From Geodermatophilus amargosae (GTDB lineage Bacteria; Actinomycetota; Actinomycetes; Mycobacteriales; Geodermatophilaceae): a DNA stretch of 64,000 nt. The stretch lies in the NCBI RefSeq assembly GCF_900116515.1, contig NZ_FPBA01000016.1, positions 1 to 64,000 on the forward strand, written 5' to 3'. Under the pieces are notes generated by a model. The model had not been told where the DNA came from and made no database searches. It saw only the letters and a program-made list of their open reading frames with translations. The position numbers were made by a program, and so were the translations under genes. Below are positions 13,571-58,011 of this stretch, piece after piece. Each line of letters begins with the position of its first letter. Positions within the stretch are counted from its first letter, which is position 1.

Positions 13571-15652
13571 GTGACCGTCCCCGAGCAGCGTCCGGGGTCG
13601 CCTGGGGCGGCGCCCCGCCCGCTGTCCGTGCTCCCCGACGACCCCGAGGTCAGCCGGCTGCGCTTCGAGCTGGCCATCGACGCCGCCGGCATCGGCAGCT
13701 TCGACTGGGACCTCGTGACCGGGAAGCTCTCCTGGGACGACGCGCTCCTGACGATCTTCGGCTACGACGCCGACGGCTTCGACGAGACGATCGACGCCTT
13801 CGCCGTGCGGCTGCACCCCGACGACCGCGAGCGCACCCTCGGCGCCCTGCAGGACGCCATCGACACCTGCGGTGCTTACGACGCGGAGTTCCGCGTGGTC
13901 CTGCCCTCCGGTGAGACCCGCTGGGTGCAGGGCCGCGGCCGCGCGCTGGCCGACGACCGCGGGACGGCGGTCCGGCTGCTCGGTGCCGGCATCGACACCA
14001 CCCGGTTGCGCGAGGGCGACGCCCGCGTGTCCCGGGTGCTCGAGACGATGCGCTCGGCGTTCTTCGCCCTCGACCGCGAGTGGCGGTTCACCTACGTCAA
14101 CGCCGAGGCCGAGCGGGTGCTGCGCCGCGGCCGCGACGAGCTCCTCGGCGGTGACGTCTGGGCGCTGTTCCCGGCCGCGGTCGGCAGCGACTTCGAGGTC
14201 AACTACCGCGCGGTGATGGAGCGCGGCGAGGAGCGGGTCTTCGAGGCCTACTACCCGCCGCCGCTGGACGCCTGGTACGAGGTGCGCGCGTGGCCGGGGC
14301 CCGACGGGCTGTCGGTCTACTTCCTCGACGTCACCGAGCGGCGCGCCGCCGAGCAGCGGGCCCGCGACAGCGCCGCGCGGCTCGCCCTGGTCGCGGAGGT
14401 CAGCGCGCTCATGTCGGCGTCGCTGGGCTCCGGCGGGGCCGAGGAGCCGGCGCTGCAGCGGGTCGCCGAGGCCGTGGTCCCGGTGCTGGGCGACTGGGTG
14501 ATCCTCACGCTGTCCACCGGCGAGGACGGCCGGATGCGCGACGTCGCGAGCTGGCACCGCGACCCGGCGCTGCGCGGGACCACCGCCTCCTACGCCGACC
14601 TGCGGCTGGCCTCGATCGCCCCGGACGCGCCGGTGCTGCAGGCCCTGGGGTCGGGCCGGTTGCTGACCGTCGCCGACGTCCCGGGGGTGATCCGCCCGAC
14701 GCTGCCCGAGGGCGAGGTGCGCGACGCCTTCGACGCGCTGGCCCCGCGGACGGCCGTCACGCTGCCGCTGCTGGCCCGCGGACGCACGCTCGGCGCGCTG
14801 AGCGTCTACCGCGGCGCCGACCGGCCCGCCGCGAACGCCGAGGAGGTGTCCGCGGCCCGCGAGGTCGCCGACCGCGTCGCGCTGGCGTTGGACAACGCCC
14901 GGCTGTTCGACCAGCAGCGGCGGCTGGCCGAGGCGCTGCAGCGCAGCATGCTCACCGCGCCGCCGCAGCCCGACGACGCCGAGATCGTCGTCCGGTACCA
15001 GCCGGCGGTGGAGGCCGCCCAGGTCGGCGGGGACTGGTACGACGCCTTCCTGCAGCCCGACGGCGCCACCGTGCTCGTCATCGGCGACGTCGTCGGCCAC
15101 GACACCGAGGCGGCCGCGACGATGGGCCAGCTGCGCGGCATGCTGCGCGGGATCGCGTACCGCGGCGACGTCCCGCCCGACGCCGTCCTCGTCGAGCTCG
15201 ACGGTGCCATCGACGCGCTGCGCATGGGCTCGATGGCCACCGCGGTGGTCGCGCGGGTGGAGCAGACGCCGGCGCAGCGCGCGGCCGGGACGACGACGCT
15301 GCGCTGGTCCAACGCCGGCCACCCGCCGCCGCTGCTGCTCCTGCCCGGCGGCGAGGTGCGCGAGCTGGGCACCGAGCGCGGCCAGCTCATGCTCGGCGTC
15401 GACCCGGCCGCCCGGCGGACGTCCGCGGCGGTCGAGGTACCGCGCGGCTCGACGCTGCTGCTCTACACCGACGGGCTGGTCGAGGGCCGGGACCTGCTGC
15501 TCGACGACGGCATCGGGCTGCTGCGCACCGCGCTGGCCCGCCTCGCCGACCTCCCGCTGGACCGGCTGTGCGACGCGCTGGTCTCCCGGCTGCGCCCCGA
15601 GGGCCTCCAGGACGACGTCGCCCTGGTCGCGGTCCGCCTGCACCCCCAGTAG
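13571..15652 (+). CDS. PAS-PAS-GAF-PP2C (RsbU/SpoIIE-type) phosphatase
   Basis: A 693-residue sensor phosphatase. It has two PAS domains (about residues 25-140 and 150-260), a GAF domain (about 275-445) and a SpoIIE/RsbU-type PP2C domain (about 455-690). Catalytic metal motifs are present: GGDWYDAFL, VIGDVVGHDTEAA, LLYTDGLVEGRD and DDVALVAVRL. No membrane segment is seen. The protein should remove phosphate from a STAS-domain antagonist and so release a stress sigma factor in response to signals read by the PAS and GAF domains. An RsbW-like kinase gene converges with it at 15721-16146, and the two may act on the same pathway. GTG 13571 is the first in-frame start. Confidence 0.92.
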   Translation: MTVPEQRPGSPGAAPRPLSVLPDDPEVSRLRFELAIDAAGIGSFDWDLVTGKLSWDDALLTIFGYDADGFDETIDAFAVRLHPDDRERTLGALQDAIDTCGAYDAEFRVVLPSGETRWVQGRGRALADDRGTAVRLLGAGIDTTRLREGDARVSRVLETMRSAFFALDREWRFTYVNAEAERVLRRGRDELLGGDVWALFPAAVGSDFEVNYRAVMERGEERVFEAYYPPPLDAWYEVRAWPGPDGLSVYFLDVTERRAAEQRARDSAARLALVAEVSALMSASLGSGGAEEPALQRVAEAVVPVLGDWVILTLSTGEDGRMRDVASWHRDPALRGTTASYADLRLASIAPDAPVLQALGSGRLLTVADVPGVIRPTLPEGEVRDAFDALAPRTAVTLPLLARGRTLGALSVYRGADRPAANAEEVSAAREVADRVALALDNARLFDQQRRLAEALQRSMLTAPPQPDDAEIVVRYQPAVEAAQVGGDWYDAFLQPDGATVLVIGDVVGHDTEAAATMGQLRGMLRGIAYRGDVPPDAVLVELDGAIDALRMGSMATAVVARVEQTPAQRAAGTTTLRWSNAGHPPPLLLLPGGEVRELGTERGQLMLGVDPAARRTSAAVEVPRGSTLLLYTDGLVEGRDLLLDDGIGLLRTALARLADLPLDRLCDALVSRLRPEGLQDDVALVAVRLHPQ

Positions 15653-15720
15653 GAGGACCCTCCTGTCCCCCACGCCTCGCCGGCCCGGCGCGGGACCCTG
15701 CGTTCCGGCACCTGGCCGGG

Positions 15721-16146
15721 TCAGTGCGGGGGGAGGACCGCCCAGACGGTCTTGGCGTCGCCGTCGACGTACCAGCCGTGCGCGGTCGACAGCTCGGCGA
15801 TGAGGTAGAGGCCCAGGCCGCCCTCGGAGGGGTCGCGGTCGACCGCGGGGGTGGGCGGGGTGCACGCGTCGCCGTCGGACACCGCGACGAGGAAGGCGTC
15901 CCCGGTGTGCCGGACCGCGGCCTCGACGCAGCCGCCGCCGTGGCGCAGCGCGTTGGAGGCCATCTCGTCGAGCACGAGGACCAGCCGGTCGCGCAGGTCG
16001 GCGGCGCCGTCCACCACGTGCGAGCGGCGCAGCTCCTCGCGCACGAGCGGCAGCTGGGAGACGTCGGACAGTGCCCAGGACAGGCCGTCCCACGCGGGCG
16101 GGGGTGACGCCGACGGCCAGCCGGTCGCGGCCGTCCTCCGTCTCAC
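15721..16146 (-). CDS. RsbW-like ATP-binding anti-sigma kinase
   Basis: A 141-residue HATPase_c protein similar in plan to the one at 5840-6337. The N-box is LVLVLDEMASNALRHGGGCV, the acidic motif is AVSDGDACTPPTPAVDRDP, and the lid is GGLGLYLIAEL. It likely binds a sigma factor or phosphorylates an antagonist. GTG 16146 is used because GGGGAG lies about 8 nt upstream. It converges with the PP2C phosphatase at 13571. The shared PTPAVDRDPS.GG phrase with the 5840 gene suggests the two are paralogues. Confidence 0.85.
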   Translation of the reverse strand: MRRRTAATGWPSASPPPAWDGLSWALSDVSQLPLVREELRRSHVVDGAADLRDRLVLVLDEMASNALRHGGGCVEAAVRHTGDAFLVAVSDGDACTPPTPAVDRDPSEGGLGLYLIAELSTAHGWYVDGDAKTVWAVLPPH

Positions 16147-16253
16147 GCGTTGCTCCCCGTTGCCGTGCCCGCCCGTCGGGCGCGAAGTCGAACACCTGCG
16201 TATGGCTCACGAGAGCGGTCGGTAAACACCCGTGCGAGCAGCGTCACAGGAAG

Positions 16254-16281
16254 GGAGCCGGAACGTCGTCGTCACGGCTCC
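16254..16281 (+). other. leader hairpin upstream of the nucleobase permease
   Basis: GGAGCCG at 16254-16260 pairs with CGGCTCC at 16275-16281, 60 bp before the permease start. It could be part of an mRNA leader. It does not match a purine or other riboswitch known to me. Confidence 0.3.
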
Positions 16282-16341
16282 GGAACACGGGCCCCGGGAC
16301 CGTGCTCGGGGTACCGACGTCCCCCGCCGAGGAGAACCCCG

Positions 16342-17742
16342 ATGGCCCTCTCCACCCCGCGGGTGCGCACCGCCGCGCCCGCTTCCCAGGACCCCGCAGA
16401 CCCCGACGCCCGGCCGCCGTGGCGCGTGGCCGTCCCCCTCGGGCTGCAGCACGTCCTGGCGATGTTCACCTCGAACCTGACCCCCGCCATCCTGCTGGCC
16501 GGGGTCATCGGCGCCACCACCGGCGAGGCCACCCTGCTGGTGCAGGCGGCCCTGCTGTGCGCGGGCCTGGCCACCCTGCTCCAGACGGTCGGCATCGGCC
16601 CGGTCGGCAGCCGGCTGCCGCTGATGATGGGGTCGGGCTTCGCGTTCATCGCCGTCGCCGTCCCGCTGGCCGAGGAGCACGGGCTGTCGGCCGTGCTCGG
16701 CGGGGTGCTCGTCACCGCCGCCGTCCAGGTGGCCATCGCGCTGGGCATCCACCGCGTGGTCGCGCTGTTCCCGCCGGTGGTGACCGGCACGATCATCCTG
16801 GTCATCGGACTGGGCCTGCTGCCCAGCGGTCTCACGCTGGCCGCCGGCGGGGCGAACTCGCCGGACTTCGGCTCGCCGGTGAACCTGGGCATCGCCGCGC
16901 TGGTCTGCCTGCTCGCCGTGGCGCTCAACCAGTTCTGCCGCGGGCTGCTGTGCACCGCCTCGGTGCTCGTCGCGGTGGTCGTCGGCTACCTGGTGGCCAT
17001 ACCGTTCGGCCTGCTCGACCTCTCCGGCGTCGGGGACCGGCCGCTGGTCGCCGTCCCCCTGCCGTTCGAGTTCGGCCTGTCCTTCCCGCTGGTCGCCGTC
17101 CTGTCGATGGCGGTCGTCGGCGTGGTCAACACGGTCGACTCGGTCGGCACCGTGCACGCGGTCACCGAGGGGGGCGCCGGGCGGCCGGCCACGACGCGGG
17201 AGCTGCGCGGCGGGATCCTCGCCGAGGGCGGCAGCGCGGTGCTCGGCGGCGTCTTCGGTGCCCTGCCGACGACGATGTTCAGCCAGAACATCGGCCTGGT
17301 GGCGCTGACGAGGCAGATGAGCCGGCACGTGGTCACCCTCGGCGCGCTGGTGCTGGTCGGGCTGGCGCTGCTGCCGCAGGTGGCCGCGGTGCTCGCCGCC
17401 ATCCCGCCCGCGGTGCTCGGCGGCGGCGTGCTCGTGCTGTTCGGCATGGTGTGCGCGATCGGCGTGCAGATGCTGGCCAAGGACGGCCTGGACACCCGCT
17501 CGCTGCTGATCGTCGCGCTGTCCCTGGCCCTGGGCCGCGGCATCGCCTCGGCGCCCGCCGCGCTCGACCGGGTCACCGGCCAGTGGGGCGCGCTGTTCGA
17601 CTCGGGGATCGTCGTCGCGGCCGTCGTCGCCGTCGTGCTCAACCTCGTCCTGCCCGGGCGGAGGGGCGCCGGCGACCCGCCGTCGCCTGCCGAGGGGGGC
17701 GTGGCCGACGCCGTCGCCGGGCAGCGACCGGCGGCCGGCTGA
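16342..17742 (+). CDS. NCS2-family uracil/xanthine permease
   Basis: A 466-residue integral membrane transporter with about 12 to 14 hydrophobic segments, in the nucleobase:cation symporter-2 family (UraA, XanQ). Features include LGLQHVLAMF near the N-terminus, the AALLCAGLATLLQT helix, GSRLPLMMGSGFAFI, and FGALPTTMFSQNIGLVALT, which is the conserved substrate-site stretch. It should import uracil, xanthine or a related base, probably with protons. The choice between uracil and purine is not certain. ATG 16342 has GAGGAG about 6 nt upstream. Uric acid genes at 47-50 kb are too far away to be in the same operon, but a purine substrate would suit them. Confidence 0.9.
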   Translation: MALSTPRVRTAAPASQDPADPDARPPWRVAVPLGLQHVLAMFTSNLTPAILLAGVIGATTGEATLLVQAALLCAGLATLLQTVGIGPVGSRLPLMMGSGFAFIAVAVPLAEEHGLSAVLGGVLVTAAVQVAIALGIHRVVALFPPVVTGTIILVIGLGLLPSGLTLAAGGANSPDFGSPVNLGIAALVCLLAVALNQFCRGLLCTASVLVAVVVGYLVAIPFGLLDLSGVGDRPLVAVPLPFEFGLSFPLVAVLSMAVVGVVNTVDSVGTVHAVTEGGAGRPATTRELRGGILAEGGSAVLGGVFGALPTTMFSQNIGLVALTRQMSRHVVTLGALVLVGLALLPQVAAVLAAIPPAVLGGGVLVLFGMVCAIGVQMLAKDGLDTRSLLIVALSLALGRGIASAPAALDRVTGQWGALFDSGIVVAAVVAVVLNLVLPGRRGAGDPPSPAEGGVADAVAGQRPAAG

Positions 17743-17811: not shown

Positions 17812-20805
17812 TCAGCGGACCGAGGCCGCCAGGGCCTCGGACACCCGCGCCGCCAGCTCGGGGGCGTGCCCGGCGGCGAGCAGGTCGTGGTGTGCTCCGG
17901 GGACGTCGACGACCGTGAGGTCCGGCGCGATGCGCCGCAGCGCGTACAGCTGGTTCATGATCACCGGGATCCGTCGGCGCGCCCTGAAGTAGCTGACCGG
18001 TCCGGCGTAGGGCCCCCACGCGTGCCGGTTGAACGCCTCCTCGCTGCGGCGCAGCACCTCCTCGTCCGGGCTCGACGGTGCCGCGGCGGGCAGCAGTCGC
18101 CGGAGCGGACCGGCGCGCAGGAAGTCCACCACCGTGTCCCCGGCCATGCCGGGCACCAGGCGGGCGGCCAGCGCAGCCAGGTGGTAGAGCCGCTGGGCGT
18201 TGCGGGACAACTGACCGGTCGGCGGCAGCAGGTCCAGCAGCCCGAGGAAGCCGACCTCGCGGCCGCGCGCCGTCAGGAGGCGGGCCATCTCGAGGGCGAC
18301 GAGCCCGCCGAAGGAGTAGCCGGCCAGCCGCACGGGGCCGGTGGGCTGCAGCTCCTCCAGTCGCTCGGCGTGCCGTCGGGCGAGCTCGGCGACCGAGGCC
18401 TCCCCGACCGCGTCCGCGGTGCCCAGGTGGGCGGTCAGGCCGTACACCGGGGCGTCGGTGTCGAGAGCGTCGACCATCGACCGGTAGAGGTCGACGTCGC
18501 CCTGCGGTCCGTGGACCAGGACCAGGGGCGGGACGCCGGCCACGCCCTCCCGCAGCACCTCGACCGCCACGTCCCGTCCGCCTCCGACGGCCAGGACCGC
18601 GGCCAGTCCGCCGATGGTGGGCGCTGCGACGAGGTCGTCGACGCTCACGGGCCGGCGCAGCTCGCCCCGCAGTCTGCGCAGCAGTGTCATGGACTGGCGC
18701 GAGGTGCCGCCCGCGTCGAAGAAGTCGGCGTCCTCGGGCACCGGGGCCCCGAGCACCTCCGCGAAGACCCGGGCGACGACCGCCTGCACGTCGTCACCCC
18801 GGACGCCGTCCACGGACGACCCGTCCCCCGTGCCCGGGGTCGGCACCTGCGTGGCTGCCAGGGCCGCTGCGATGCCCTCCAGCGACCCCGGGTTCTTCAG
18901 CGCGGAGGCGTTGCGGACCGGCTCGCCGTCGAGCACCGCCCGCGCGGCGCTCTCCGACCGCTTGCCGTTGTGGGTGAGCGGGACCTCGTCGACGGCCAGG
19001 ACCAGCGAGGGCACGTGCGCCGGAGAGCCCTCCCGCCGCAGCGTCGAGCGGATCCGCAGCGCCAGCGCGTCGTCCATGACGACGCCGGGCCGCAGGACGA
19101 CGAGCAGCGCCAGCCGCGTGCTGCCCGGCGTGGCCGGGTCGCGGATCTCGACGGCCATGGCGTCGGCGACGCCGGGTACCGCGCGGACGATCGTGTAGAT
19201 CTCCGACGGGCCGATGCGGATGCCGTTGACGTTGAGGACGCCGTCGGAGCGGCCGTGCAGCCGCGCGGACCCGTCCGTGTCGATCTCGATGCGGTCGCCG
19301 TGGGTCCACGCCCCGGGGTGCGCGGCGAAGTACGCCCGGTGGAACCGCTGCCCGTCCGGGTCGTCGAGGAAGCGGACGGGACGCGACGGGAACGGGTTGC
19401 GGCAGACGAGCTCGCCCACCTCGCCGAGCACCGGGGAGCCGTCCTCGCCGAGGGCCACGACGTCGAGACCGAGACTGAGCGACTGGGCGCGCCCGGGGCG
19501 GACCGGCAGCTCGGGGTGACCGAGGACGAAGCAGCCGATGACGTCGGTGCCGCCGGAGATCGACTGCAGCGGCACGTCCCCGACGGCGTCGGCGACCCAG
19601 GCGAACTGCCACTCGTGCAGCACCGCGCCGGTGGAGAGCACCGCCCGGAGCGCGGAGAGGTCGACGGCGTCACGCGGCCGGTAGCCGTCGTCCTGGCACA
19701 GCTGCAGGTAGGCCGGGCTGGTGCCGAAGACGGTGACCCCGTGCGCAGCGACCAGCTCCCAGAGGGTCTCCGGACCGCTGATCGGACCGTCGTAGACCAC
19801 GACGTGCGCGCCGACGGCCAGGGCCGACAGCTGCCAGTTCCACATCATCCAGGCGGTGGTGGTGTGGAAGTACAGCGTGTCGCCCGGCCCCAGGTCCCCG
19901 TGCAGCCGGTGTTCCTTGACGTGCTCGAGCAGCGTGCCGCCGGCCCCGTGGACCATCGCCTTGGGCGGTCCGGTGGTACCGGAGGAGAACATGACGAACA
20001 GCGGGTGGTCGAAGGCCAGCCGGGGCCACTCGGGGCCCGGGTCGTCGGCGGGGACGGCGGCCACCAGGTCGGTCAGGCGGGCCACCGGCACGCCGTCGAA
20101 CGCGGGCAGCGGGCCGTCGTCGAGGACCAGCACCCGCCGGACCGTGGGCAGGCCCGCCACCACGGTGGCGAGGACCTCGTCGGGGCCGGCCCCGTCCTGG
20201 CCCAGGCCGGCGCGGTCGACGAGCGCGGTCCCGGCCCCCACCTGGCCGAAGCGGCCGAGCAGGGTGGTGGGGCCCATGTCCGGCGTGGCCGTCGAGATCG
20301 TGGCGCCGAGCGCGGCGGCCGCGAGCGCCGCCACCGCTGCTCCGGCCGAGTTGGGTGCGATCGCCAGCACGGTCTCGCCCGGGCCGGTGCCGAGGTCGGC
20401 GAGCGCACGGGAGGTCCGCCGGACGGCCGTGCGCAGCTCGCCCCGGGTGAGGCGCTCCAGCGACCCGTCCGCGTGCACCGACGTGATCGCGGGTGCGTCG
20501 TCGCCGGCACCTGGCACGGCGCGCAGCAGGTTCTCGGTGTAGTTGAGCCGCACCTGCGGGAAGAACCGTGCTTCCTCGACGTCGTCCCCGGTGCGGACCG
20601 GTTCGGCCGATCCCTCCCGGACCAGGCCCGACCAGGTGAGCAGGGTGCGCCAGAAGTCGTCCGGGGAGCGGACCGACCAGTCGTGCAGCGCCGGAGCCGT
20701 GGGCAGCTCCCGGCCGGCGACGGCCTCGGCGCGGGCACGGAAGTCCGCGATCTGCGGCGGCCGGCCGGAGGGCACCGGCTGCCGAGCGGGGGCCAGCACG
20801 CTCAT
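17812..20805 (-). CDS. acetoacetyl-CoA-synthetase-like adenylation domain fused to carrier and thioesterase domains
   Basis: A 997-residue NRPS-like protein in three parts. Residues about 1-640 follow acetoacetyl-CoA synthetase: an N-terminal FFPQVRLNYTENLL, the P-loop FSSGTTGPPKAMVHGAGGT, WMMWNWQLSALA, SISGGTDVIGCFVLG, and the catalytic lysine of PLTHNGKRSES. A carrier domain (about 690-760) has DFFDAGGTSRQSM with the serine for phosphopantetheine. An alpha/beta-hydrolase thioesterase (about 770-997) has GYSFGG and GAHHDLL. The expected chemistry is activation of a small beta-keto or related acid, loading on the carrier, and release by hydrolysis or condensation. No condensation or ketosynthase domain is present. 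ATG 20805 has GGAGGG 6 nt upstream and overlaps the transferase stop. The product is unknown. Confidence 0.9.
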   Translation of the reverse strand: MSVLAPARQPVPSGRPPQIADFRARAEAVAGRELPTAPALHDWSVRSPDDFWRTLLTWSGLVREGSAEPVRTGDDVEEARFFPQVRLNYTENLLRAVPGAGDDAPAITSVHADGSLERLTRGELRTAVRRTSRALADLGTGPGETVLAIAPNSAGAAVAALAAAALGATISTATPDMGPTTLLGRFGQVGAGTALVDRAGLGQDGAGPDEVLATVVAGLPTVRRVLVLDDGPLPAFDGVPVARLTDLVAAVPADDPGPEWPRLAFDHPLFVMFSSGTTGPPKAMVHGAGGTLLEHVKEHRLHGDLGPGDTLYFHTTTAWMMWNWQLSALAVGAHVVVYDGPISGPETLWELVAAHGVTVFGTSPAYLQLCQDDGYRPRDAVDLSALRAVLSTGAVLHEWQFAWVADAVGDVPLQSISGGTDVIGCFVLGHPELPVRPGRAQSLSLGLDVVALGEDGSPVLGEVGELVCRNPFPSRPVRFLDDPDGQRFHRAYFAAHPGAWTHGDRIEIDTDGSARLHGRSDGVLNVNGIRIGPSEIYTIVRAVPGVADAMAVEIRDPATPGSTRLALLVVLRPGVVMDDALALRIRSTLRREGSPAHVPSLVLAVDEVPLTHNGKRSESAARAVLDGEPVRNASALKNPGSLEGIAAALAATQVPTPGTGDGSSVDGVRGDDVQAVVARVFAEVLGAPVPEDADFFDAGGTSRQSMTLLRRLRGELRRPVSVDDLVAAPTIGGLAAVLAVGGGRDVAVEVLREGVAGVPPLVLVHGPQGDVDLYRSMVDALDTDAPVYGLTAHLGTADAVGEASVAELARRHAERLEELQPTGPVRLAGYSFGGLVALEMARLLTARGREVGFLGLLDLLPPTGQLSRNAQRLYHLAALAARLVPGMAGDTVVDFLRAGPLRRLLPAAAPSSPDEEVLRRSEEAFNRHAWGPYAGPVSYFRARRRIPVIMNQLYALRRIAPDLTVVDVPGAHHDLLAAGHAPELAARVSEALAASVR

Positions 20806-21509
20806 CGGGACCCTCCGGGTGTCAGGGGGGCGACGTCGAGGTCGCCGGCGTCCAGCGGCGCATCGCAGGCGAGGCTGGCCACGTACCCCCCGGGTACGGC
20901 GACGGGTGCGAGCCACCACGGTCCTGCCCTCCCGGTGTCGGCCACCGGGGTCACCACGTCGGCAGGAGGACGGCGGACGCCGGTCCCCCGGGCCTTGAGG
21001 ACCGCCTCCTTCTGCGTCCAGCACCGCGTGACGGCGCGCAGCCGGTCGGGCCCCGGCGGCAGGACGGCGAGCCGCGCCCGCTCCGCCGGGCCGAGCCAGC
21101 CCTCGGCGGCGGCGTCGGCGGCCTCCTCGTCGCGGTGGCGCTGCACGTCGACGCCCACGGTGGCGCCGGTGGCGACCGCGACGAGGGCCACGCCCTCGCT
21201 CGCCGAGCAGGAGAGTCCGAGGCCGGAGCCGGGGAGGACCGGGCGGCCGTCGACGGTCACCAGCGGAACGTCGTTCGGAGCGACGTCCAGCAGGCAGCCG
21301 AGGACGCGACGCAGGCCCGAGCGGACCAGCAGCCGCCGGCGGCGGACGGGAGCGACCCCGCGGTCGGCCCGGGCTCGTTCACCCTCCGCGAGATCGGCGG
21401 CCGCCATCGCCAGGTCCCATCCTGGATGCGTCAGGTCGAGGGCACGCAGAGTGATCACCGGCGTCGACGCAGGGTGCGCGACCAGCCGTTCCGACGTCCG
21501 CCTCGACAT
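20802..21509 (-). CDS. Sfp-type 4'-phosphopantetheinyl transferase
   Basis: A 235-residue transferase that would move the phosphopantetheine arm from CoA to a carrier serine. It shows the usual GRPVLPGSGLGLSCSASEG region, a TVGVDVQRH metal motif and CWTQKEAVLKARGTG. The metal motif has Gln where many family members have Glu (GVDVE). ATG 21509 is preceded by GGGGAG. Its TGA overlaps the ATG of the adenylation-carrier-thioesterase gene (ATGA), which indicates coupled translation and a dedicated partner. It could also serve other carrier proteins in the cell. Confidence 0.88.
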   Translation of the reverse strand: MSRRTSERLVAHPASTPVITLRALDLTHPGWDLAMAAADLAEGERARADRGVAPVRRRRLLVRSGLRRVLGCLLDVAPNDVPLVTVDGRPVLPGSGLGLSCSASEGVALVAVATGATVGVDVQRHRDEEAADAAAEGWLGPAERARLAVLPPGPDRLRAVTRCWTQKEAVLKARGTGVRRPPADVVTPVADTGRAGPWWLAPVAVPGGYVASLACDAPLDAGDLDVAPLTPGGSR

Positions 21510-25908: not shown

Positions 25909-26526
25909 GTGCCGGTCGCCGACCTGCTCGCCCGCCACGCCGACGCGTGGCGGCGGGCCACCCGCCATCCGTTCATCGACGCCGTCCGCGACGGCACGCT
26001 GCCGCCCGCCGCGTTCGACACCTGGCTGGTGCAGGACGCGCACTTCGTCGCCGACCTGCTGCGCTTCCAGGCGCGGCTGCTGGCCCGCGCGCCCCGTCCG
26101 GCGCAGGCGGTGCTGGCCGGCGGGTGCGTGGCGCTGGTCGGGGAGCTGGACTGGTTCGCGCGGATCGCCGACGCCCGGGGCCTGGACCTCGACGCGCCGC
26201 AGCTGCCGGTGACCATCGCCTACGGGGACCTGCTGTACCGGCTCGACGCCGCGGACGTCGGCACCGCCCTCACTGCGCTGTGGACCGTCGAGCGGACCTA
26301 CCTCGACGCCTGGTCGGCCGCGCTCCCCGGCGCCGGGCCGTACCGCGCGTTCGTCGAGCACTGGACCGCGCCCGGCTTCGCGTCCTACGTCGCCGGACTG
26401 GAGACGGCGGCCGACCACGCCGCGGTCGACCAGGCGGCCCCCGGCGACGACGCCGTCTTCCTCGAGGTGGTGGCCGCCGAGACGGCGTTCTGGGGGATGG
26501 CACTCGACGACGGGGCCCTGTCGTGA
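25909..26526 (+). CDS. TenA-family protein without the active-site cysteine
   Basis: A 205-residue all-helical protein of the TenA/heme-oxygenase fold: TWLVQDAHFVADLLRFQARLLARAP near the N-terminus and ETAFWGMALDD at the end. The position where B. subtilis TenA has its catalytic Cys reads TVERTYLDAW here, so this belongs to the Cys-less (TenA_E-like) class. That class acts on pyrimidine breakdown products in thiamine salvage or has other roles. GTG 25909 is the first start inside the domain. Its stop overlaps the next TenA gene as GTGA. Unlike its neighbours on both sides it has no riboswitch directly before it. Confidence 0.85.
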   Translation: MPVADLLARHADAWRRATRHPFIDAVRDGTLPPAAFDTWLVQDAHFVADLLRFQARLLARAPRPAQAVLAGGCVALVGELDWFARIADARGLDLDAPQLPVTIAYGDLLYRLDAADVGTALTALWTVERTYLDAWSAALPGAGPYRAFVEHWTAPGFASYVAGLETAADHAAVDQAAPGDDAVFLEVVAAETAFWGMALDDGALS

Positions 26527-27173
26527 CCCTCTCCGCCGGGCTGTGGGTCGGCAGCGCCGACCTGGCGTCGGCCGCGCTCGCCTCCCCGTTCGTCACCGGG
26601 ATCGCCGACGGCACGCTGCCGCACGAGCGGTTCGCCGGCTACGTCGCCCAGGACGCGTTCTTCCTCGAGGCGTTCGCCCGCGCCTACGCCCTCGGCGTCG
26701 CGCACAGCCGCGACCGCTCGACGCTCGAGGCCTTCGCCGACCTGCTGGCCGGCGTCCGCGAGGAGTTGCGGCTGCACGACGGCTACGCCGCCCGGTGGGG
26801 GATCGACCTGGCCGCGGTGTCCCCGGCGCCGGCGACGCTCGCCTACACCGAGTTCCTGCTGGCCACGGCCGCGCTGGGCGACGTCGGCGAGGTGGCTGCC
26901 GCGATGACGCCGTGCATGCGGCTCTACGCGCACCTCGGGCAGGCGCTGGTCCTCCGTGCGACCGGGCCGTACCGCGAGTGGGTGGACACCTACGCCGACC
27001 CCGGGTTCGAGGAGCTGGCCGCCACCCTCGAGGCGCTGCTCGACCGGGTCGCCGCCGACACCCCTGGCGTGCGGCGGGCGTACCGCCGGGCGATGGGGCT
27101 GGAACTCGGCTTCTTCACCGCGGCCGGGGAGTCCACGGCCTGGGAGGCCGGGGGTAGCGTCGGCAGGCAGTGA
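26523..27173 (+). CDS. tenA: TenA-family aminopyrimidine aminohydrolase
   Basis: A 216-residue TenA-family enzyme predicted to release hydroxymethylpyrimidine from aminopyrimidine products of thiamine decay. It has QDAFFLEAFARAYALG, TPCMRLYAHLGQA with the cysteine matching Cys135 of B. subtilis TenA, and LELGFFTAA with the C-terminal glutamate. This is the Cys-containing partner of the preceding gene, to which it is coupled by GTGA. The second TPP riboswitch starts immediately after its stop. Confidence 0.88.
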   Translation: MTLSAGLWVGSADLASAALASPFVTGIADGTLPHERFAGYVAQDAFFLEAFARAYALGVAHSRDRSTLEAFADLLAGVREELRLHDGYAARWGIDLAAVSPAPATLAYTEFLLATAALGDVGEVAAAMTPCMRLYAHLGQALVLRATGPYREWVDTYADPGFEELAATLEALLDRVAADTPGVRRAYRRAMGLELGFFTAAGESTAWEAGGSVGRQ

Positions 27174-52950: not shown

Positions 52951-55900
52951 GTGACGGGGGACGCGCCCGGCTCCCTGTTCGCCGGCGGTGGGGAGGTGGG
53001 CCGGGAGATGGCCGCCCGCGACTGGGCGGACACCCCGCTCGGACCCTCCGGGCAGTGGCCCTCGGCGCTGCGCAACCTCGTGCGCATCGTCCTGACCTCG
53101 CGGTTCCCGATGTGGGCCGCATGGGGTCCGGAGCTGGCGTTCTTCTACAACGACGCGTACCGGCGCGACACCCTGCAGGCCAAGCACCCGTGGGCACTGG
53201 GCCGCCCGGCGTCCGAGGTGTGGGCCGAGATCTGGGACGACGTCGGCCCGCGGGTGCAGTCGGTCCTCGAGACCGGGGTCGCCACCTGGGACGAGGACCT
53301 GATGCTCTTCCTGGAGCGCAGCGGGTACCCGGAGGAGACCTACCACACCTTCTCCTACAGCCCGGTCGCCGACGACGACGGCCGCACCGCCGGGTTGCTC
53401 TGCGTCGTCACCGAGAACACCGACCGGGTGCTCGCCGAGCGGCGGATGGCCAGCCTGCGCGACCTCGCCACGGCGATCGCCGCGACCCGGACCGAGGCCG
53501 ACGTGCTCGCCGCCGTCGGCGGGCAGCTGGCCCGCAACGACGCCGACCTGCCCTTCTCGGCCACCTACCTGGTCGACGACGACGGGTGCGCGCGGCTGGG
53601 CACCACGACCGGGCTGACCCCGGGCTCCCCGGCCGCGCCGGAGACCCTCGCCGACGACGGGGTCTGGCCGCTGTCCCGGCTGCGCGCCGGCGAGCAGGCC
53701 GTCGTCGACCTCGCCGGGATCCCCGGACTGCCCACCGGCGCCTGGGACCGGCCGCCGTCGCGGGCGCTCGCGGTGCCGGTCGCCTCCCCGGTCGCGGACA
53801 CCGCCGCGGTCGCCGGCTTCCTGGTCGTGGGGCTCAACCCGCACCGCGCCCTCGACGAGGCCTACGCCGGATTCCTCTTGCTGGTGGCCGGCCAGATCGC
53901 CTCGGGCCTGGCCAACGCGGGCAGCCACGCGGCCGAGCGGCGCCGCGCGGAGGCCCTGGCCGAGCTCGACCGCGCCAAGACCGACTTCTTCAGCAACGTC
54001 AGCCACGAGTTCCGCACCCCGCTGACGCTGATCATGGGCCCGGTCGCGGAGCTGCGGGCCTCGGCGGTGGCCACCGCCGACCCGCGGGTGGCCGAGGAGC
54101 TCGAGGTCGTCGAGCGCAACGCGCTGCGGCTGCAGAAGCTGGTCAACACCCTGCTCGACTTCTCGCGCATCCAGGCCGGCCGCATCGACGCGCGGTTCGA
54201 GCCGGTCGACCTCGCCACGACCACCGCGGAGCTGGCCAGCGTCTTCCGCTCCGCCGTCGACCGGGCGGGCCTGCGGCTGACCGTCGACTGCCCGCCGCTG
54301 TCGCAGCCGGTGCACGTCGACCGGGACATGTGGGAGAAGGTCGTCCTCAACCTGCTCTCCAACGCCCTGAAGTTCACCTTCGAGGGCGGCATCACCGTGC
54401 GGCTCCGGCAGGGCGAGGACGCCGCGGTCCTCACCGTCGCCGACACCGGCACCGGCATCCCCGCCGCCGAGCTGCCCCGGCTGTTCGAGCGGTTCACCCG
54501 CGTGTCCGGCGCCCGCTCGCGCTCCGGTGAGGGCAGCGGCATCGGGCTGGCGATGGTCGAGGAGCTGGTCGGCCTGCACGGCGGCTCCGTGGAGGTGCAG
54601 AGCGCCCCTGACGTCGGGACGACCTTCACCGTCACCGTGCCGCTGGGCACCGCGCACCTGCCCGCCGACCGCCTGGCCCCCGCGGTGGCCGAGCCGCCGG
54701 CGATCTCGCCCGGCGCCACGCCGTTCGTCGCCGAGGCGCTGCGCTGGCTGCCGTCGGCGGGCGACGACGCCCCCGCGGCCGCCCCCGGTTCGCAGGGCAG
54801 CCGCGCCGGCCGTGTGCTGGTGGCCGACGACAACGCCGACGTGCGCGACTACGTGGTGCGGCTGCTCGCGCCGGTGCACGAGGTCCGTGCGGTCGCCGAC
54901 GGCCAGGCGGCCCTGGAGGCTGCCCTGGCCGACCCGCCCGACCTCGTCGTCAGCGACGTGATGATGCCGCGGCTGGACGGCGTGCAGCTGCTCGCCGCCC
55001 TGCGCGCCGACGCCCGCACCTCCCGCGTCCCGGTGGTCCTGCTCTCGGCCCGCGCCGGCCAGGAGTCCGCCGTCGAGGGGCTGGCCGCCGGGGCCGACGA
55101 CTACCTCGTCAAGCCCTTCTCCGCCCAGGAGCTGCTCGCCCGCGTCGACGCCCACCTGCAGCTCGGCCGCGCCCGCCGCGAGGCCGAGGAGCGGTTCACC
55201 ACGATGGCCGACCTCGCGCCCGCGCTGATCTGGGTCGCCGACGGCACCGGCCGGCGGGAGTTCCTCAACGCCGCCTGGACGACGTTCACCGGCCGCCCGA
55301 TGGAGGCGGAGCTCGGCGACGGGTGGCGGGCCGGGCTGCACCCCGGCGACGCCCGGCGCTACGCCGGCACGGTGGCGGCCGCGACGGCGGCGGGGGAGGG
55401 CTGGGAGGTCGAGTTCCGGCTGCGCCGCGCCGACGGCGCCCACCACTGGCTGCTCGAGCGCGCGGTGCCCATCGGCGGCACCGCCGGGGGCTGGGTGGGC
55501 AGCTGCACCGACATCAACGCCCGCTACCGGGAGACCGAGCGGCAGACGCTGCTCGCCGAGGTCGGCACGGCGCTCGACCGCGAGACCGAGGTCGAGCGGC
55601 AGCTGGCCGGCCTGGCGCGGCTGGTCGTCGACCGCCGCCTGGCCGACGTCTGCACCGCGCGGGTCGTCGGGCCGGACGGGCGGCTGCGCTACGCCGGCCT
55701 CGCGGGCGTCGAGGACACCGCCCGGCCGGAGCCGCACGGCGGGCTGGGCGTCGAGGTGCTCGACACCGGCGCGCCGGTGCTGCGCCGGCACCTGTCCGGC
55801 GCCGGCGACGGCGGTGTCCGGCTGGACCTGCACTCGGCGCTGCTGGTGCCGCTCACCGTCCGCGGCCGGGTGCGCGCGGTCCTGGCGCTCGGGCGCCGCG

Positions 55901-58011
55901 ACGACGCCCCGCCCTTCCACGACGACGACCGCGCGCTGGCCGAGGAGATCGCCGCCCGCGCCGCGCTGGCCCTCGACAACGCGCTGCTGCTGGCCGACGA
56001 GCGCGCCGCGGCGCGGCGGCTGGGCCTGCTCCAGCGGGTGACCGCCGAGCTCTCGGCCGCCACCACGCCGGTCGAGGTGGCCGAGGCGGCCGCCGCCTCG
56101 GTCCTCTCGCTCACCGGGGACGGCAGCCGGGTCGGCGTCTACGAGGTCGACGACGCCGGCCGCGCCCTGCGCCTGCTCGCGCAGGCCGGCCCCCCGGCCG
56201 ACGACCGGCACCGGTGGGCCGAGATCCCGCTCGGCACACCGGTGGCGGTCACCACCGCGGTCACCGGACGTCGCCCGGTGTGGATCGACGACGTCCCGGA
56301 CCGGGTGGCCGGCGCACCCGGGTCCGTCGTGGCGCTGCCGCTGCTGGCCGCCGGCCGCGTGGTCGGCGTGGTGGGCGTGGGTGCCGCCGAGGCGGGCCGG
56401 CTGGGTGTGGCCGAGCGCGGCATGCTGCTGGCGGTGGCCGAGCAGTGCGCCTCGGCGCTGGACCGGGCCCGCCTCTACCGCGCCGAGCAGGACATCGCCT
56501 CGACCCTGCAGCTGAGCCTGCTGCCCGCCGCGGTGCCCCGGCTGGAGCGGCTCGCGCTGGCCGCCGAGTACCTGCCCGGCGCCGCGGGCACCTCGGCCGG
56601 CGGCGACTGGTACGACGTCGTCGAGCTGGGCGGGAGCCGGGTGGCCATCGCCGTCGGCGACGTCGTCGGCCAGGGCCCGGCGGCCGCCGCCGTGATGGGC
56701 CAGCTGCGCAGCGCGCTGTCGGCGGCGCTGCTGCAGGGTGACTCCCCGGCGGAGGCCCTGGAGCTGCTCGACCGGTTCGCCGCCCGGCTGCCCGGCGCGC
56801 TGGCCTCGACCGCGGCCTGCCTGGTGCTCGACTGGGCGGCCGGCACCGTGCGGTGGGCCCGCGCCGGCCACCCCCCGCCGCTGCTGGTGACCGACGGCGC
56901 GGCGACCTTCCTCGAGGAGGGCGGAGGTGCGGTCCTCGGCGCGCCGGGCCGCCGGCCGTACGCCGAGGGCGGCACCACGGTCAAGCCGGGGACGACGCTG
57001 CTGCTCTACACCGACGGCCTGGTCGAGCGCCGCGGCGAGTCCCTCGACACCGGCCTGCGCCGCGTCGCCGAGGCCGCCGCACGGCTGGGCGGCGCCGAGC
57101 CGCGCCGGCTGACCCGCGCGCTGCTGGCCGAGGTGCTCGACGACTCGGCACTGCCCGACGACGTCGCGGTCATCGCCGCCCGCCTCACCCCCGAGCCGCT
57201 GCACGAGGTGCTGCGCGCCGAGCCGGCCCGGCTGCGCGGGGTGCGGCGCCGGGTGACCGCCTGGGCGCTGGCCGCCGGGCTCACCGGCGACTCCCTCGAC
57301 GACCTGCAGCTGGCCCTCGGCGAGGCGCTGGCCAACGCCGTCGAGCACGCCTACGCCGCCACCGCCGGGGAGGGGCGCTGCGAGTACCGGCTCGAGCGGA
57401 CCGCCGACGGCGGCGTCGACGTCTGCGTGCGCGACGAGGGCGTGTGGCGCCCGGCGCCGGCCGACAAGGGGTACCGCGGCCGCGGACTGGAGCTGATCTC
57501 CGCGCTGGCCACCGACGTCGAGGTCGGCCGCACTATCGACGAGGGCGGCGGCGAGGGGGCCGGCACCACGGTGCACTTCCGCTTCGTCCCGGCCGGACCG
57601 GGGCCGGACGAGCCGGTGGTCCGGGGCGACGGCGCGCGGCCCGACGCCGGGGCGGCCCGGTTGACGGTGGACCGCGGGCCCGGGAGCGTGCGGCTGGCGC
57701 TCTCCGGCGAGCTCGACCTGGTCGCCGCCCCGGGCCTGCGCGCCGAGGCCCTGCGCGCCCTCGACGAGATCCCCGGCGGCACGCGGGTGCTGGTCGACCT
57801 GGAGGCGGTCACCTACCTGGCCAGCGCCGGCGTGGGGTTGCTGCTCGAGCTGCTCCGGGTGGCGAGCGCGCGCTCGGTGGTCGTCCGGGTGCGCACCCGC
57901 GAGGGGTCCGCGCCGGCCCGCGTGCTCGCGCTGGCCGGGGTGGACCCCGGCGCCGGGCCGGGCCGGGCGGACGGCCCGCGGGGGAGCCGGTACACCCCCC
58001 GGGGGACCTGA
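52951..58011 (+). CDS. composite signalling protein: hybrid histidine kinase, PP2C phosphatase, RsbW-like kinase and STAS on one chain
   Basis: A 1686-residue soluble signalling protein. Domains in order with rough residues: PAS-like sensor (20-150), GAF (165-320), histidine kinase with His352 in SNVSHEFRTPLT and N-box NLLSNALKF (340-575), response regulator receiver with Asp669 in VVSDVMMP (620-740), PAS (750-860), two GAF domains (870-1020, 1035-1180), SpoIIE-type PP2C with GGDWYDVVEL and LLYTDGLVERRG (1190-1410), RsbW-like HATPase with LGEALANAVEHAYA and GRGLELIS (1415-1550), and a STAS domain with the phosphorylatable serine in TYLASAGVGLLL (1565-1665). All key residues appear intact. Phosphorelay input and a full partner-switching output are thus combined. 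GTG 52951 starts 21 bp after the aldolase-like gene. Confidence 0.93.
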   Translation: MTGDAPGSLFAGGGEVGREMAARDWADTPLGPSGQWPSALRNLVRIVLTSRFPMWAAWGPELAFFYNDAYRRDTLQAKHPWALGRPASEVWAEIWDDVGPRVQSVLETGVATWDEDLMLFLERSGYPEETYHTFSYSPVADDDGRTAGLLCVVTENTDRVLAERRMASLRDLATAIAATRTEADVLAAVGGQLARNDADLPFSATYLVDDDGCARLGTTTGLTPGSPAAPETLADDGVWPLSRLRAGEQAVVDLAGIPGLPTGAWDRPPSRALAVPVASPVADTAAVAGFLVVGLNPHRALDEAYAGFLLLVAGQIASGLANAGSHAAERRRAEALAELDRAKTDFFSNVSHEFRTPLTLIMGPVAELRASAVATADPRVAEELEVVERNALRLQKLVNTLLDFSRIQAGRIDARFEPVDLATTTAELASVFRSAVDRAGLRLTVDCPPLSQPVHVDRDMWEKVVLNLLSNALKFTFEGGITVRLRQGEDAAVLTVADTGTGIPAAELPRLFERFTRVSGARSRSGEGSGIGLAMVEELVGLHGGSVEVQSAPDVGTTFTVTVPLGTAHLPADRLAPAVAEPPAISPGATPFVAEALRWLPSAGDDAPAAAPGSQGSRAGRVLVADDNADVRDYVVRLLAPVHEVRAVADGQAALEAALADPPDLVVSDVMMPRLDGVQLLAALRADARTSRVPVVLLSARAGQESAVEGLAAGADDYLVKPFSAQELLARVDAHLQLGRARREAEERFTTMADLAPALIWVADGTGRREFLNAAWTTFTGRPMEAELGDGWRAGLHPGDARRYAGTVAAATAAGEGWEVEFRLRRADGAHHWLLERAVPIGGTAGGWVGSCTDINARYRETERQTLLAEVGTALDRETEVERQLAGLARLVVDRRLADVCTARVVGPDGRLRYAGLAGVEDTARPEPHGGLGVEVLDTGAPVLRRHLSGAGDGGVRLDLHSALLVPLTVRGRVRAVLALGRRDDAPPFHDDDRALAEEIAARAALALDNALLLADERAAARRLGLLQRVTAELSAATTPVEVAEAAAASVLSLTGDGSRVGVYEVDDAGRALRLLAQAGPPADDRHRWAEIPLGTPVAVTTAVTGRRPVWIDDVPDRVAGAPGSVVALPLLAAGRVVGVVGVGAAEAGRLGVAERGMLLAVAEQCASALDRARLYRAEQDIASTLQLSLLPAAVPRLERLALAAEYLPGAAGTSAGGDWYDVVELGGSRVAIAVGDVVGQGPAAAAVMGQLRSALSAALLQGDSPAEALELLDRFAARLPGALASTAACLVLDWAAGTVRWARAGHPPPLLVTDGAATFLEEGGGAVLGAPGRRPYAEGGTTVKPGTTLLLYTDGLVERRGESLDTGLRRVAEAAARLGGAEPRRLTRALLAEVLDDSALPDDVAVIAARLTPEPLHEVLRAEPARLRGVRRRVTAWALAAGLTGDSLDDLQLALGEALANAVEHAYAATAGEGRCEYRLERTADGGVDVCVRDEGVWRPAPADKGYRGRGLELISALATDVEVGRTIDEGGGEGAGTTVHFRFVPAGPGPDEPVVRGDGARPDAGAARLTVDRGPGSVRLALSGELDLVAAPGLRAEALRALDEIPGGTRVLVDLEAVTYLASAGVGLLLELLRVASARSVVVRVRTREGSAPARVLALAGVDPGAGPGRADGPRGSRYTPRGT

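Follow-up and report, generated by a model that had tools for sequence, protein, structure and literature searches.

A bacterial protein family that joins an acetoacetyl-CoA-synthetase-type domain to a carrier and a thioesterase and often pairs with a phosphopantetheinyl transferase

Here, we describe a gene pair at 17812-21509 on the minus strand of a 64,000-nucleotide stretch (the window; positions 1 to 64,000 of contig NZ_FPBA01000016.1) of the soil actinomycete Geodermatophilus amargosae, and the protein family to which its larger product belongs. The upstream gene (20802..21509, minus strand) encodes P0001, a 4'-phosphopantetheinyl transferase of 235 aa with an ACPS domain well above the cut-off (PF01648, 6.9e-12; 45.8 versus 25 bits). 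The downstream gene (17812..20805, minus strand), which runs in the same direction, encodes P0002, a 997-aa protein that, according to its open reading frame, translation, Pfam and NCBIfam matches and AlphaFold model (pLDDT 86.5), consists of an acetoacetyl-CoA synthetase (AACS)-type adenylation domain, a carrier and a thioesterase (TE). The two genes share an ATGA, in which the synthetase ATG (20805-20803) overlaps the transferase TGA (20804-20802). An earlier reading made from the letters alone (the sequence-only reading) had described this overlap, as well as a carrier with GGTS and a GYSFGG thioesterase on one protein with an adenylation domain, and as an observation it holds throughout.

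All features of P0002 lie on the minus strand. The adenylation domain (residues 16-648, 18862..20760; NF002937/TIGR01217) includes the C-terminal extension typical of AACS and the catalytic Lys615 (18961-18963); within it, Pfam recognizes AMP-binding at 103-471 and AMP-binding_C at 538-615. It is followed by the carrier (PP-binding, residues 677-737, 18595..18777; PF00550, 4.2e-12), with the attachment Ser702 at 18700-18702, and by a type I thioesterase domain (residues 760-997, 17815..18528; PF00975, 4.5e-22, matched over 760-926), with the triad Ser831 (18313-18315), Asp858 (18232-18234) and His972 (17890-17892).

The claim that the adenylating part follows AACS rather than the domains of nonribosomal peptide synthetases (NRPS) is borne out by profile scores, by structure and by phylogeny. 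Residues 16-648 exceed the curated cut-off for acetoacetate--CoA ligase (TIGR01217, 585.8 versus 520.9 bits) and fall far under that for amino-acid adenylation (TIGR01733, 90.7 versus 317.4 bits). The nearest PDB sequence match of the domain is the AACS of Streptomyces lividans (4wd1), which is also the best fold match of the AlphaFold model (Z 46.0), and, given that this match covers residues 5-654, the AACS C-terminal extension is present. A maximum-likelihood tree was built from 85 adenylation domains: 48 of fused proteins, 25 of AACS, 7 of acetyl-CoA synthetases (ACS) and 5 others, 4 of which belong to adenylation-carrier-thioesterase (A-T-TE) proteins. In it, the fused proteins form a single clade, with support of 100 in the SH-like approximate likelihood ratio test (SH-aLRT), beside AACS and apart from ACS and the other adenylation proteins, which excludes their placement among ordinary NRPS domains. 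A branch with support 100 separates the fused proteins from the rest; support for the AACS group is just 77, and thus, the fused family may be either sister to AACS or nested within it. A single fusion event would be the simplest history of the family.

The pocket points in the same direction. Motif and pocket counts refer to 82 fused sequences, whereas those of catalytic residues refer to 80, the two with an exchanged C-terminus having been set aside. The acyl-pocket positions of the fused family are M320 (82/82), M321 (78/82), T392 (77/82) and G418 (82/82); the same residues occupy the AACS counterparts in 22, 24, 23 and 25 of 25 sequences, respectively, and correspond to V310, T311, V386 and W414 in ACS, by the residue numbering of Acs and GrsA. 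Where NRPS domains have the Asp that binds the alpha-amino group, all 82 fused sequences carry Thr, Ser or Ala, with Thr as the residue read for the family. Together, the AACS-type pocket and lineage make a short beta-keto or beta-hydroxy acid the likely substrate. The AACS motif DGYxYxG[KR], the Tyr of which is present in 25/25 AACS, occurs in none of the 82 fused sequences. This motif aligns with the Arg-containing CoA segment of ACS, which holds R194, one of the residues altered by mutation in the Salmonella enzymes of known structure. From established work and by homology, this segment is the one that contacts CoA in both ACS and AACS, and the loss of the motif is as expected if a carrier in cis takes the place of CoA.

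The carrier and thioesterase of P0002 keep their catalytic residues (S702, S831, D858 and H972), and the same is true of nearly the whole family: the adenylation Lys and the carrier Ser are each invariant in 80/80 fused sequences, and the TE Ser, Asp and His are conserved in 78/80, 80/80 and 78/80. The TE model (pLDDT 90.6) matches type I thioesterases, first those of EntF (Z 26.8) and NocB (Z 26.7). One relative, L073, was initially classed as TE-dead but proved to be frameshifted, with the carrier and TE continuing in the next frame.

The family extends well beyond this locus. The G. amargosae genome itself encodes a second fused unit, 60% identical and with its own transferase directly upstream, placed elsewhere, between mazG/surA-like genes and mfd (gene names from reading of the sequences). 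Of 112 Geodermatophilaceae genomes, 35 encode fused proteins, 42 in total; these are clearly set off by score, the lowest fused protein (a frameshifted copy) reaching 888 bits and the best standalone AACS 413 bits. Evenly drawn samples of the order, class and phylum yielded one more copy outside the family. In a wider scan, with one genome per species and seeded by two short adenylation-domain motifs, the best 80 of 256 relatives were read, under a ranking by full-length match that favours fused forms; these 80 and the L107 copy are single open frames of 924-1055 aa. Their hosts are, on the actinomycetote side, Geodermatophilaceae, Microbacteriaceae, Micromonosporaceae, Pseudonocardiaceae and Thermoleophilia-type metagenome-assembled genomes and, further afield, Burkholderiaceae (Cupriavidus, Paraburkholderia, Caballeronia), Oxalobacteraceae, Comamonadaceae and Acetobacteraceae. 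The family is thus spread over Actinomycetota and Pseudomonadota, that is, at least two phyla and many genera.

Surveyed across these genomes, the two-gene unit is recurrent. In 37 of the 40 Geodermatophilaceae loci with gene calls, the gene immediately upstream of the synthetase is a transferase of the same strand, and most of these pairs share 4 bases, which argues that the pairing is not due to chance. Overall, a transferase lies within 3.5 kb on either side of the synthetase in 45 of 81 loci. In this 81-locus set, a linked transferase accompanies 29 of the 31 Geodermatophilaceae synthetases, upstream with one downstream exception; it lies downstream in 3/3 Microbacteriaceae and in Cupriavidus, and upstream in Thermoleophilia-type genomes. 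That the partner stands on one side in some lineages and on the other in others speaks for a functional bond. The linked transferases split into several lineages in the transferase tree, in which some rows labelled unlinked are the linked gene found twice. In one Amnibacterium genome, a single further ACPS-family match exists besides the linked transferase. The transferase is also the sole recurrent gene: a conserved tailoring partner was sought across the contexts, and no recurrent gene other than the transferase was found. Pfam recognizes no domain in a 431-aa protein encoded near three copies (L082:421-1716; also in L031 and L084); it has an NHxxxDG-like motif and is possibly a condensation-like acyltransferase.

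Some relatives have lost or exchanged the thioesterase. In Blastococcus tunisiensis and B. xanthinilyticus (L069:7249-10023 and L071:8494-11232), a hexapeptide acyltransferase domain stands in place of the TE, and in 3 further relatives (L072:6354-9692, L087:7979-11576 and L086:8228-16495), the TE Ser and His are mutated. Each of the 5 encodes a hexapeptide acyltransferase, and all of these acyltransferases belong to a single EpsC/CysE-like family; the distance to the synthetase is nil (a fusion), at most 121 bp or 4.8 kb. Given that the synthetase is otherwise kept without a working TE, transfer of the loaded acyl group is hinted to be its normal fate, and acyl transfer seems, from these relatives, no less likely than a dimerisation of the fungal style. 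The five occupy two clades of the adenylation tree.

We propose the following mechanism, which builds on the domain order, the AACS ancestry, the intact catalytic residues, the pairing with the transferase and the lack of another conserved partner. P0001 would place the phosphopantetheine arm on Ser702 of the carrier; the AACS-type domain would then adenylate a short beta-keto or beta-hydroxy acid of about the size of acetoacetate, as its lineage and pocket suggest. In keeping with the fusion and the loss of the CoA motif, the acid would be loaded in cis on the carrier arm rather than on free CoA. The TE would accept the acyl group on Ser831 and hand it on to an acceptor; the most likely course is acyl transfer to a nucleophile, either a diffusible one or a glycan, with self-condensation or hydrolysis less likely. 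We infer substrate, acceptor and product alike, and confidence differs among the steps: that such an acid is activated and loaded in cis we regard as quite probable, whereas acyl transfer as the release chemistry is a tentative choice, a little short of an even chance. The account as a whole, from AACS-type activation through cis loading to TE-mediated passing to an acceptor, is put forward with the same caution. Acyl transfer is nevertheless our first choice, followed by self-condensation to a small product, then glycan modification and, last, futile editing.

Several observations weigh against this proposal. The 36 of 81 loci that lack a transferase within 3.5 kb, mostly in Burkholderiaceae, loosen the pairing, and other ACPS-family genes are present in the checked genomes of this kind. 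The outer adenylation positions are unlike those of AACS (e.g., Q325, V395 and R475), so that the acid may differ, and we infer its class from the lineage and four pocket positions. Furthermore, both TE-lost clades share the mfd/polysaccharide neighbourhood and represent few independent events, and a test of the exchange between TE and acyltransferase on phylogenetically independent pairs is not significant.

Among the alternatives, the one that survives best is that the TE joins two loaded acyl units into a small cyclic product, for example a pyrone if both are beta-keto units or a cyclic ester if they are hydroxy acids. Indeed, A-T-TE enzymes that condense aromatic keto acids, with adenylation domains of NRPS lineage, are known (PMC9047271, PMC12105029), and the sequence-only reading had drawn a parallel to the furanones and quinones made by such proteins in fungi. 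What that reading said of the AACS lineage, the carrier, the TE and the transferase stands; the likeness to fungal furanone and quinone synthetases is only an analogy. P0002 shares with the fungal NRPS-like synthetases (atromentin, polyporic acid, furanone) the A-T-TE order within one protein and the absence of a condensation domain, and dimerisation would also fit the lack of a recurrent tailoring gene and the closeness of the TE fold to the product-forming type I thioesterases EntF and NocB. However, the adenylation domain comes from another lineage than that of the aryl-pyruvate synthetases, the protein is bacterial and has a recurrent dedicated transferase, and dimerisation would not predict five relatives in which the TE is lost, the synthetase is otherwise retained and an acyltransferase has been acquired or lies close by. 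Thus, we consider dimerisation unlikely, and we give the same modest credence to its broader form, a widespread two-gene pathway in which an AACS-derived synthetase, helped by the transferase alone, would draw two short beta-keto or beta-hydroxy acids from central metabolism and condense them to a new small molecule.

Less probable still is that the unit adds a short acyl group to exopolysaccharide or another glycan. Many Geodermatophilaceae copies lie near capsule or exopolysaccharide genes, and the acyltransferase found in place of the TE resembles EpsC/WcaB. However, the mfd site contains such genes also in several relatives without the unit, and the copy in the window has no polysaccharide neighbour. 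Outside the family, in Burkholderiales and Acetobacteraceae, marker genes are not enriched (4/18 contexts versus 7/40 systematically placed control windows, P = 0.46); a test of a single marker family gave 3/35 contexts versus 1.3% expected (P = 0.011), on which we do not rely. An exopolysaccharide function as the general role was therefore rejected, the mfd locus being the same without the unit and enrichment being absent outside the family, and the polysaccharide link as such is unproven. Separately, the G. amargosae genome encodes more A-T-TE proteins, whose adenylation domains are of the ordinary NRPS type (L197:3443-6016 and 14687-17278, C28; L198, C29); one of them adjoins two family-2-like glycosyltransferases. 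Four relatives encode a second A-T-TE protein of NRPS type (~870 aa), divergent from the AACS-type one and accompanied by GT2 and GH16-like genes in the same order (L026:5948-8485, L028:10758-13376, L029:6905-9514 and L074:12462-15080).

Finally, that P0002 is simply an acetoacetate--CoA ligase, with an accessory carrier and a TE that merely edits or hydrolyses, agrees with the TIGR01217 score and with public plasmid records in which relatives bear this name but is very improbable, because the fused family forms a clade of its own beside AACS, has lost the CoA-site motif throughout, coexists in G. amargosae with three standalone AACS genes and would waste its strictly conserved carrier and TE residues on a futile cycle.

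The surroundings of the pair in the window are a xanthine/uracil permease on one side and thiE, thiG, thiS and thiO with a cytosine-type permease on the other. Hence, the earlier statement that no other biosynthetic gene lies beside the pair is valid for small-molecule tailoring genes, but the thiamine genes and two permeases do flank it. A link to thiamine was rejected, as the unit adjoins thiE/G/S/O only in this genome and one close relative (L030). Adjoining the thiamine genes, at 25909-27173, there is a tandem pair of TENA/THI-4 family genes with a 4-base overlap. Elsewhere in the window, 52951-58011 encodes a 1686-aa signalling protein with histidine kinase, receiver, PAS, GAF, SpoIIE phosphatase, second ATPase and STAS domains.

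With AACS (TIGR01217; 4wd1), the family shares the adenylation domain with its C-terminal extension, the M/M/T/G pocket and the catalytic lysine; it differs by the fused carrier and TE, the loss of the CoA-binding motif, a clade of its own and the linked phosphopantetheinyl transferase. With the type I thioesterases of NRPS and polyketide synthases (EntF, 3tej; NocB, 6ojd; Pks13), it shares the fold and the Ser-Asp-His triad, the P0002 TE being about 20-32% identical to them over the aligned parts. We found no description of an AACS-carrier-thioesterase protein in the literature searched, although one may exist given that subscription journals were mostly outside the search; the family is apparently undescribed. 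Because databases file its members as acetoacetate--CoA ligase, they are easily mistaken for an ordinary ketone-body enzyme.

Our findings suggest that a CoA ligase of primary metabolism was converted, apparently once, into a carrier-loading synthetase that often travels with its own activating enzyme. With its members whose release domain is disabled or swapped for another, the family offers a natural series, and it poses a simple, testable question, namely, what a single adenylation-carrier-thioesterase protein makes from acetoacetate or its relatives.

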